In this document: in pieces, positions 27,406 to 30,294 of the stretch | Position numbering within the stretch: position 1 is the stretch's first letter | How the letters are laid out: each line of letters starts with the position of its first letter | Assembly: GCF_016908275.1 (NCBI RefSeq) | Contig: NZ_JAFBDN010000007.1 | Coordinates: forward strand, 1 to 64,000 | Origin: Periweissella beninensis | GTDB lineage: Bacteria > Bacillota > Bacilli > Lactobacillales > Lactobacillaceae | Reading direction: 5' to 3' | DNA length: 64,000 nt | Notes under the pieces: generated by a model | The model's input: the letters and a program-made list of their open reading frames with translations, nothing else | What the model was told of the DNA's origin: nothing | Database searches by the model: none | Position numbers and translations under genes: made by a program

Positions 27406-27738
27406 TTTAATAATGAGTTGAGCCGTAATTAAGGTCATTATCTTTAAATGCAAATAAAAGTGCTTTATGGCATAACATCCCACCTAGGGACGCCAAATAG
27501 TAATACGCAAAGGCATGTTAATTAGTAAATTAGCATGCTTTTTTGTTACGTGGCATTATTAAATTACTAATGAGGTGCTCTTATTAAGATAAAAAAGATA
27601 TTTTGGATTAAATCGGTAAAAAAATGACCTGAAAGGTTATTTTAATTAAAATTTGCGGTATGATTAATATATGAATTAATTGAGATAAAATATTCAATTA
27701 ATCAATGAAGTTATTAAAAAAATGGGGCGTGATGTTTA
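27406..27738. other. 333-bp noncoding gap between rpoZ and unknown operon
   Basis: No gene is supported. It contains the gmk-rpoZ terminator and, nearer the downstream gene, an AT-rich stretch with TATGAT at about 27659-27664 that may serve as the -10 of the next operon. GGGGCGTGATG (27723-27733) lies just before the ATG at 27739 and supplies its ribosome site. Confidence 0.5.
27513..27544 (+). terminator. Rho-independent terminator of gmk-rpoZ
   Basis: GCATGTTAATT (27513-27523) pairs with AATTAGCATGC (27528-27538) through one G-T pair, followed by six T residues. Confidence 0.85.
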
Positions 27739-28617
27739 ATGACAACTAATGAATATTTAGCAACGCAAGGACCAATTGTCCATCCAATATTACTTGAAAA
27801 ATTGGATGACAAACTAAACTATTTAACAGCAGTTAAAACAGCCATTCAAGAGCACGATGATCGCTTACTGTATAGTTTGCTTGATCAAAAACGTTATCAA
27901 GAAGTTGTCGAAAATCGAATTGATAACCCTGATGATAATCAATTATCTGCAATGGTAATCAATTTAAGAGCTGAATTAAGTCATTTTTTAGCCCAAGAAT
28001 TAATTACCTATTTGGCGAAGGCTTTTCCGTTCTTTTATTATAAAGAAATTGTTAATGGGGAGTACGAAATCTACTTTGGTAATTGGTGGGATCGACGGCG
28101 GTTTGGGACGTTAAATGTGCTTGAATTAGCTTTTGAATTTGATGATGTTGAGTATAGTAAATTAGAAAAATCAGTCGAATTGTCAAAAAATGGTATCCGC
28201 TTTAACAGTGATAATATTGCGATTTTAACTGATGAAAATGAAAAGTTACAAAAATTAATTGATACACAAGCCCAACGTGAATCAGCTAAAGAACAGCTCC
28301 GAGTTGAGTTAGATGAAACCAATAATATGCGGACGGGTTTATTTAACGGTACAAAAGCGCGCGAGCAACGTGAAGAGCTTGTTGAACAGTTGGCACAGCT
28401 TCAAGCTGATGACGAAAAAGCAGGGCAAGCACATCAAAAAATTCAAGTTAATAATGATAAAATTTTAGCATTATCAAAAGAAGATACGATTTTGATGTAT
28501 GAACAAAAGAGTATTGAACAGCAGTTTCAAACGTTTACGGTATTTGAACAGCAAGCGCAAGCATTGTATCAAAGTTATATAACATTTTTAATAAATAATA
28601 CTGGGGAGGAAGCATAA
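27739..28617 (+). CDS. Unrecognised protein with C-terminal coiled coil (operon gene 1)
   Basis: The 292-residue product is not recognised. Residues 1-150 look globular, with an aromatic-rich patch FPFFYYKEI and GNWWDRRRFG (about 98-125). Residues 160-270 are strongly charged with heptad-like spacing, consistent with a coiled coil; generic similarity to SMC/SbcC coils would be misleading. There is no signal peptide or membrane segment. It is separated by 1 nt from the next gene, so it is the first gene of a tight three-gene unit. A scaffold or oligomerising protein is plausible but unproven. Confidence 0.6.
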   Translation: MTTNEYLATQGPIVHPILLEKLDDKLNYLTAVKTAIQEHDDRLLYSLLDQKRYQEVVENRIDNPDDNQLSAMVINLRAELSHFLAQELITYLAKAFPFFYYKEIVNGEYEIYFGNWWDRRRFGTLNVLELAFEFDDVEYSKLEKSVELSKNGIRFNSDNIAILTDENEKLQKLIDTQAQRESAKEQLRVELDETNNMRTGLFNGTKAREQREELVEQLAQLQADDEKAGQAHQKIQVNNDKILALSKEDTILMYEQKSIEQQFQTFTVFEQQAQALYQSYITFLINNTGEEA

Positions 28618-28618
28618 T

Positions 28619-29632
28619 ATGACAGTTTCAGACTTACCAGTAGGTGTTTTACCAAGTAAAAGTTTAATTGGTTATAATGATGAACTCAAAGCTGGCCTTG
28701 CAAATGGCTATCAGTTTACGGAATTAGTTGATCAATTACTATTAACTAATGATGCTAATCAATTATTAACGGCAGTGCTTCAATTAATTAATTTTGATTT
28801 GAATACCAAGCAAGTTCAGTTTCCTAACCAATATCAAAAAAACGATTGGTATCTTTTGTTTATGACTCGGTTACTAGAATTACACCAAAATAGTAATTTT
28901 AGTTTAGCTAGCGCCACTGATCATCAAGAATTAGGTTTGTTTTTAGCTGGGAGTGGGGTGCGGGCCCGTTTTCAATTTGAATTAGACACATCATATAACG
29001 GTGGGGCTTTCTTTACGGAAATTGAAACTAAACGGCGCTTGTTTTATCTTAACCTTGCAAAAAAAGAATTATTTTTTAATAGCCATGATTTAGTAGAGTT
29101 ATTTGGGACCGAGTTGAGAGCAATTATTAGTGCTGATGCACGAATGACAGCGATTCATGTGATGATGGATTTTGCGGCAGCATTAAGTAGTGATTTTGCG
29201 TTCACAGTTGATTATAATATCTTAACAGTTGCAAATACCTATCAGTTTGAATTTAAAGAGGCTAATTTGGCGCCAGAACTATTAGATAAACTATTTGTGT
29301 TATCGGCTAAAGATGAAATTATCATGCAAAATGCGACTGATGGGTATGGAGCTAAATTAGCTTTACCAGGCAATATCATCGTTAACTTGCTTCAAAATAT
29401 TGGTAATGATAATCAGCCATTTTGGTATTTAACGGTAATTGATGCGAATGAGCGCCAATCATGGTTTGATGTGTTGATGAATTATGATTTCATCTATCAA
29501 TGGTATCAAACCGATTTAGCTAGCTTAGAAATTCAAGCAAATCAACGTGTGTTTGGTGCTAAGCCTAATCACGTAGAGGCAAATCGCGTCCAGGTTGAAG
29601 TTTTACAGCCACATTATAGTGAGGAAGGTTAG
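28619..29632 (+). CDS. Unrecognised protein (operon gene 2)
   Basis: The 337-residue product is not recognised. It is acidic and apparently cytosolic, with mixed helix and strand segments, a hydrophobic patch near 195-215 (MDFAAALSSDFAFTVDYN), and no nucleotide-binding or metal motif visible. It starts 1 nt after the coiled-coil gene; GGGGAGGAAGC precedes the ATG at 28619. The downstream gene starts 4 nt after its stop. Tight packing implies coordinated synthesis of the three proteins, possibly as a complex (inference). Confidence 0.55.
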   Translation: MTVSDLPVGVLPSKSLIGYNDELKAGLANGYQFTELVDQLLLTNDANQLLTAVLQLINFDLNTKQVQFPNQYQKNDWYLLFMTRLLELHQNSNFSLASATDHQELGLFLAGSGVRARFQFELDTSYNGGAFFTEIETKRRLFYLNLAKKELFFNSHDLVELFGTELRAIISADARMTAIHVMMDFAAALSSDFAFTVDYNILTVANTYQFEFKEANLAPELLDKLFVLSAKDEIIMQNATDGYGAKLALPGNIIVNLLQNIGNDNQPFWYLTVIDANERQSWFDVLMNYDFIYQWYQTDLASLEIQANQRVFGAKPNHVEANRVQVEVLQPHYSEEG

Positions 29633-29636
29633 GGTT

Positions 29637-30146
29637 ATGCTTGACACTGCTAAATTATTGCGCCTTTCTCGGGAAGCAAAACAGACAATATCTCTTAACC
29701 GCAATTTTCGGCAAAAACCAGCTGATTGGCGTAAAACGGTGTATGTTAATTTAGATGTACAATTAGGATTATTGGCTGATCAACTAGGTTGGTTTAAGGG
29801 GTGGCAAAATATGCCGGCAATGGCTATTAATGCAACAACTATTAACAACTATGTCCAAACCTTGAATTTGTTTTTATGGATTGCGCAAGTTGAGCAATGG
29901 ACGCATTTAGTTGTTTTAGAAGAGAGCGAATTAACAAAGTTGGCCAAGATGCCTAAACGAGACTTAAATGCTCATTATTTAGGAATTAAAAGTATGTTGT
30001 GGAATTGTTATTTACAGGGTGATCAAGCTAGTTTTAAACATGCTTGGCATTCGATTATTAAATTTGGCTTAGTTGAATTAGCTTTAAAGCAAGATTTTCT
30101 ACAACAAGCTTTTGAAGAACAAATTAACGCGCTCGTAACCGATTAG
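29637..30146 (+). CDS. Degenerate dUTPase-2/MazG-like all-alpha protein (operon gene 3)
   Basis: The 169-residue product resembles dimeric dUTPases of the all-alpha NTP pyrophosphatase superfamily. MLDTAKLL at the start, VQLGLLADQLGWFKGWQ (about 43-59) and NNYVQTLNLFLWIAQ (about 75-89) align with the family's VELGELANE..FKFW and EEFVDGLHF segments. However the four metal-binding acids of the E..E / E..D motifs are replaced (Q, L, N, Q), so catalysis is very unlikely. The start at 29637 has GAGGAAGG 8 nt upstream; an upstream reading to 29595 would overlap the previous gene. The homology is inferred by pattern and needs a profile search. Confidence 0.5.
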   Translation: MLDTAKLLRLSREAKQTISLNRNFRQKPADWRKTVYVNLDVQLGLLADQLGWFKGWQNMPAMAINATTINNYVQTLNLFLWIAQVEQWTHLVVLEESELTKLAKMPKRDLNAHYLGIKSMLWNCYLQGDQASFKHAWHSIIKFGLVELALKQDFLQQAFEEQINALVTD

Positions 30147-30259
30147 GGTACGTTTAGATGCAATTACATGAGCTAGTAAAAAGTTTTCCAAACTTAAAAT
30201 TGAAATGAACACCCACCGGTTAAGAGGGACGGGGGTAAATCACTAAGGTTAATCGACAA

Positions 30260-30294
30260 GCAACTAACTCGGCATACGAGTTAGTTGCTTTTTA
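30260..30294 (+). terminator. Terminator of the unknown operon
   Basis: GCAACTAACTC (30260-30270) pairs perfectly with GAGTTAGTTGC (30278-30288), followed by TTTTT. The stem is nearly the same as those at 88-114 and 50204-50234. Confidence 0.85.

Follow-up and report, generated by a model that had tools for sequence, protein, structure and literature searches.

In a 64,000-nucleotide stretch of the Periweissella beninensis genome (hereafter, the window), three small genes are packed one after the other downstream of rpoZ, and the last of them resembles a dUTPase deprived of its catalytic residues. What does such an operon do, and why would a dUTPase without an active site be kept in it? The answer proposed here, to which we give about an even chance, is that a phage-type dUTPase was captured into a chromosomal operon of the Lactobacillaceae and was repeatedly made into a binding-only subunit or regulator.

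Layout and chromosomal setting of the operon

The features of the locus are collected in Table 1. A tightly packed three-gene operon had been reported in a first-pass annotation of this DNA, and the open reading frames confirm both its coordinates and its spacing, with 1 nt between genes 1 and 2 and 4 nt between genes 2 and 3. For gene 3 the ATG of Table 1 aligns with the starts of its relatives; the list of open reading frames has a TTG at 29595 instead. Because the two flanking hairpins fold far better than shuffled sequence, genes 1 to 3 probably form a transcription unit of their own, bounded by two terminators. The upstream hairpin is absent from the list given by the consensus terminator scan. 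A promoter scan at the operon gave no match above shuffles, and the Rfam scan gave nothing at the gathering threshold.

Table 1. Features of the operon and of its borders in the window
Feature	Position	Strand	Basis or remark
Gene 1	27739..28617	+	open reading frame; 292 aa
Gene 2	28619..29632	+	open reading frame; 337 aa
Gene 3	29637..30146	+	169 aa; ATG start at 29637
Terminator hairpin and T run, between rpoZ and gene 1	27509..27545	+	fold -20.2 kcal/mol, z -5.9
Terminator hairpin 3' of gene 3	30258..30290	+	consensus scan and fold -21.9 kcal/mol, z -5.4
Degenerate motif II of gene 3	29760..29771	+	alignment: QLGL versus ELAE in intact copies
Degenerate motif IV of gene 3	29847..29858	+	alignment: N..Q versus E..D in intact copies
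VEVLQP motif in the C-terminal tail of gene 2, predicted to be disordered	29594..29611	+	member of the E[VIT][FL]xP type

The three genes were searched for in a sample of 151 Lactobacillaceae genomes. Gene 1 is present in 89 of them, gene 2 in 78 (single-sequence queries; profiles add further distant copies) and gene 3 in 77. All three are found together in 67 genomes, and in every one of these they are adjacent and in the order 1-2-3. About 100 loci read with their flanks agree with this arrangement, and the conserved packing far exceeds chance. The first-pass annotation had allowed that related genomes might not keep the three genes together; the neighbourhood search found that genomes possessing all three do.

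In most genera the operon lies within the order miaA-glnR-glnA-[1-2-3]-rplU-ysxB-rpmA, which is also that of a public L. fermentum record. The position after rpoZ, presented at first as that of the operon, is correct for Periweissella, the genus of the window and the only one in the 151-genome sample where all three genes were seen after gmk-rpoZ; elsewhere they mostly lie between glnA and rplU. The operon had also been described as replacing the priA-def-fmt genes that usually follow gmk-rpoZ. As far as priA is concerned this is a difference in gene order and not a loss, since a different contig of this genome has an open priA frame (821 aa). The three-gene synteny largely reflects one ancestral locus and one relocation.

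Incomplete sets were found as well. In 22 of the 89 genomes, genes 1 and 2 are not accompanied by gene 3; with profiles that include distant members, the two were also found, overlapping and again lacking gene 3, in four genera belonging to a second family of the order. Conversely, ten genomes from two small-genome genera have gene 3 alone. In these the remaining gene 3 is degenerate and genes 1 and 2 have been lost; the five loci read (L078-L082) are all the ancestral one.

Some individual records deserve mention. Weissella confusa FS54 has a second gene 1-2 pair (L148:16067-17938), which shares 44% identity with the chromosomal pair of the strain, lacks gene 3 and adjoins an apparent IS element or transposase; judging from this second copy, the pair could be mobile. 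In genome G007 (genus g8) gene 3 is missing and gene 1 is broken into two frames (L071:6757-7625), possibly through decay of the operon. Two IMG/VR contigs classed as viral carry gene 1, one of them together with genes 2 and 3 (L226:7926-10298; the other is L227:7926-8807). These are probably the host flanks of prophages, whose integration sites seem to lie a short way upstream of the operon. The sole plasmid record with operon genes, CP033372.1 (L228), a 760-kb "plasmid" of L. fermentum DR9, also has glnA, rplU and the L27 gene; it looks to be chromosomal sequence that was deposited as a plasmid.

Descent and active site of gene 3

The window copy of gene 3 has no match above threshold in Pfam or NCBIfam. 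It is, however, 52% identical to the copy of another genome of the same genus (G087), whose active site is intact (full motif ELAE...EWFKTWKTHKGK...EEYVDAMD) and which matches PF08761, dUTPase_2, at 5.5e-20. This family is matched by 12 of 30 aligned gene 3 relatives (best 3e-23), and its 36 matches across the 151 genomes all fall at the gene 3 position. Gene 3 thus belongs to the dimeric dUTPases of PF08761 by descent, with homology over the domain. The nearest homologues found outside the Lactobacillaceae are in phages and prophages of other Bacilli.

Read from these alignments, gene 3 is a true dimeric-dUTPase homologue, and its window copy no longer has the active site, which bears out the initial description of a dUTPase-like protein without catalytic residues. 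The metal ligands of ExxE and ExxD are gone, their four places being taken by Q42, L45, N71 and Q74; in motif V, Leu and Asp replace Asn and Arg, and the C-terminal Tyr is missing. Over 102 loci, all four metal ligands are kept in 46 and not in 56. Intact copies share 26 invariant residues (26 of 26 kept); lost copies keep between 3 and 14 of these, 13 in the case of the window, and no intermediates were seen. The block that is lost jointly comprises motif II, part of the latch, motif IV and the Asn and Arg of motif V. Residues W88, H135, W137, K142 and G144 (numbering of the window copy) are kept in intact and lost copies alike.

Gene 3 might conceivably still work as a nucleotide pyrophosphohydrolase, its active site having been rebuilt or its substrate having changed. 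Indeed the intact copies are already non-canonical: 44 of the 46 (L097, L159 and others) have an Asp in motif IV where the canonical residue is His and staphylococcal phage enzymes have Ala, a position that shapes the sugar/uracil pocket. To judge by this residue, the true substrate of the intact copies may not be dUTP. Persisting hydrolysis is nevertheless very unlikely to explain the lost-site copies, as these share no replacement acids, and that of the window is without all four metal ligands as well as the Asn and Arg of motif V.

How often the active site changed was counted on a tree of genes 1 and 2. The fewest changes that account for the present distribution are eight, and the starred, well-supported branches force at least six. 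We read these changes as losses, about eight in all with at least six on well-supported branches, because it is implausible that four acids and the remainder of the site were regained. Constraint on gene 3 is relaxed after these losses and yet clear: dN/dS is 0.04-0.11 for pairs of lost-site species, compared to about 0.01-0.05 for intact pairs, pairs with saturated dS having been excluded.

This selection bears on the idea that gene 3 is a functionless ex-enzyme in decay, heading for loss. In its favour, the active site was lost repeatedly, a housekeeping dUTPase exists elsewhere in each genome, and in several genera the gene is wholly lost. But the dN/dS after loss is that of a gene under purifying selection and not of a decaying one; reading frames are intact in nearly all genomes, C-terminal residues are conserved, and the gene was kept where genes 1 and 2 were lost. 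Decay is therefore highly improbable. The housekeeping enzyme in question is a separate trimeric dUTPase found in 151 of 151 genomes, and the copy in the window genome has recognisable motifs. Given this second enzyme, that of the operon is dispensable as an enzyme.

The history of gene 3, descent from a phage-type dUTPase, and its pseudoenzyme state can be held with high confidence. Since the active site was lost and the gene remained under purifying selection, we infer that gene 3 probably acts by binding rather than by catalysis.

Genes 1 and 2 and the candidate partner of gene 3

Gene 1 had been announced as a globular plus coiled-coil protein. Its AlphaFold2 model (54 input sequences, pLDDT 91) agrees, with a helical N-terminus, a four-stranded sheet around a conserved FGNWWDRRxFG and a long C-terminal coiled coil. 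For gene 2 (64 input sequences, pLDDT 87) the model is an alpha/beta protein, apparently two-lobed, with a disordered C-terminal tail. Neither gene has a credible family in Pfam, NCBIfam, PHROGs or PADLOC scans. With PDB sequence profiles, gene 1 drew only coiled-coil noise and gene 2 no match at all, and Foldseek gave nothing at E<=0.001, either with both models against the PDB or with gene 2 against the viral library BFVD. Foldseek matches to MHC and F-BAR proteins, with TM-scores near 0.1-0.2, were discarded as noise. No homology was detected between gene 1 and gene 2. We consider them uncharacterised families that Pfam does not hold; gene 2 is still the unrecognised 337-residue protein of the first-pass annotation, and gene 3 alone is placed by profile searches in a well-described family.

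Genes 1 and 2 form an ancient obligate protein pair. Their evolutionary rates covary with a partial r of 0.75, beyond that of two neighbouring control genes. The covariation of gene 3 with genes 1 and 2 (partial r 0.39-0.48) is no higher than that of neighbouring controls. The fixed-ratio complex that the packing had initially suggested is not supported in that form, as strong covariation is limited to genes 1 and 2, which do without gene 3 both in the second family and in 22 genomes of the 89, and gene 3 is alone in ten.

If gene 3 acts by binding, the gene 1-2 pair is its likeliest partner, because all three genes stay and move together; their joint relocation to rpoZ in Periweissella counts in favour of this partnership. 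Against it count the persistence of gene 3 in the ten genomes that have no pair, its rate covariation with the pair at no more than control level, and a synteny that largely comes down to a single ancestral locus and a single relocation; we rate its chance as slightly below even. Some of the lone copies keep the same conserved patch, so that gene 3 may have a different partner, or the patch may be structural. The same lone copies, the pairs that do without gene 3 (in the second family as well) and the covariation restricted to genes 1 and 2 would all fit a gene 3 that is an independent protein merely sharing the operon, the functional system consisting of genes 1 and 2. Strict adjacency in 67 of 67 genomes and the move made in common in Periweissella speak against such independence, which we regard as possible but rather unlikely.

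A motif of the E[VIT][FL]xP type is found in 22 gene 2 tails, compared to 0.5 expected from shuffles. In Periweissella, Weissella and some Limosilactobacillus the motif is C-terminal, whereas two other genera have it at the N-terminus. It looks like a docking motif. Although 21 of the 22 tails belong to lineages with a lost site, an association of the tail motif with this loss was set aside as evidence, as it is not independent of the tree (five pairs, p about 1).

The proposed course of events is then as follows. A phage-type dimeric (all-alpha) dUTPase gene would have been captured and fixed beside the older gene 1-2 pair. In several lineages, independently, gene 3 lost its metal- and nucleotide-binding residues, the gene being retained, and it would thereafter act through protein binding, as a non-catalytic subunit or as a regulator, most likely on genes 1 and 2. 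In intact-site lineages, nucleotide that is bound or hydrolysed may modulate the binding of gene 3, as dUTP does in the Dut-Stl case; in lost-site lineages, that of the window included, the subunit would be locked in a nucleotide-free, binding-competent state. A bolder version, which we consider improbable at present, would make genes 1 and 2 the cellular target of the captured phage dUTPase and the operon a nucleotide-responsive switch, the sensor of which was hard-wired nucleotide-blind several times in parallel. In that event both genes would represent new protein families, each with a new fold, and would serve a conserved process of lactic acid bacteria that has yet to be described.

A search of open-access papers turned up none that describes the operon; a proteomics table names a "Dimeric dUTPase" of L. 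plantarum (PMC5654829). With its synteny in 67 of 67 genomes and two genes without family, the locus is thus an undescribed conserved operon, as had been suspected, and gene 3 is new as a non-catalytic variant of a known dUTPase family. It offers a natural series in which an enzyme became a pseudoenzyme about eight times, in one operon and on a known tree, and active and dead copies can be compared within a single genus in Periweissella, Secundilactobacillus and Limosilactobacillus. Repeated pseudoenzyme formation is noteworthy to specialists, and the open question of non-enzymatic dUTPase functions becomes directly testable in harmless food bacteria. Annotation is also concerned, intact gene 3 copies being labelled dUTPase despite their changed specificity residue, and gene 1 being labelled SbcC in one public genome.

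Comparison with known systems

The SbcC label comes from L. fermentum DR9, where gene 1 is annotated "exonuclease SbcC". Both proteins have a long coiled coil, but gene 1 is only 292 aa long and is not adjoined by SbcD, and not one among 102 sequences of gene 1 has the Walker A motif (GxxxxGK[ST]) expected of the SbcC ATPase. The label is thus probably an artefact of the coiled coil.

Gene 1 also has a weak coiled-coil similarity to LmuB of the Lamassu system (E 0.002). This match, the phage-type ancestry of gene 3 and the second gene 1-2 pair beside an apparent transposase in one Weissella genome could be taken to mean that the operon serves anti-phage defence or belongs to a phage satellite, with a dUTPase mimic that would sense phage functions or act as a decoy for them. 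The similarity is however confined to the coiled coil, and gene 1 has no ATPase motif, other partners than LmuB and another genomic setting. No PADLOC model matched genes 2 or 3, so that the Lamassu combination of an LmuB head with Lmu partners was not found. Moreover, the operon occupies a fixed chromosomal site amid housekeeping genes across genera, genes 1 and 2 have no match in 50,697 phage records, and the single plasmid record itself has glnA and rplU. A role in defence or in a phage satellite is consequently very unlikely.

The gene 3 family aligns over its full length with the PF08761 dimeric (all-alpha) dUTPases, for example Dut of staphylococcal phage phiDI (PDB 5MYD/5MYF), for which the roles of the motifs have been described, the Asn and Arg of motif V binding sugar and phosphates (PMC5608427). 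Like these enzymes, intact gene 3 copies keep ExxE, the latch motif, ExxD and the K-x3-N-x2-R of motif V; unlike them, they have Asp in place of the canonical His (or phage Ala), and the window copy is without metal ligands and motif V. A further difference is that the operon copies are chromosomal and have two other genes linked to them.

Staphylococcal phage Dut binds the Stl repressor, and dUTP interferes with this binding (PMC5608427). There is no Stl repressor at the operon, and genes 1 and 2 match no DNA-binding family. What the two cases would have in common is a dUTPase whose function is carried by partner binding and not by catalysis, as proposed here for gene 3, and in this respect Dut-Stl would be, by analogy, the closest precedent for its mechanism.
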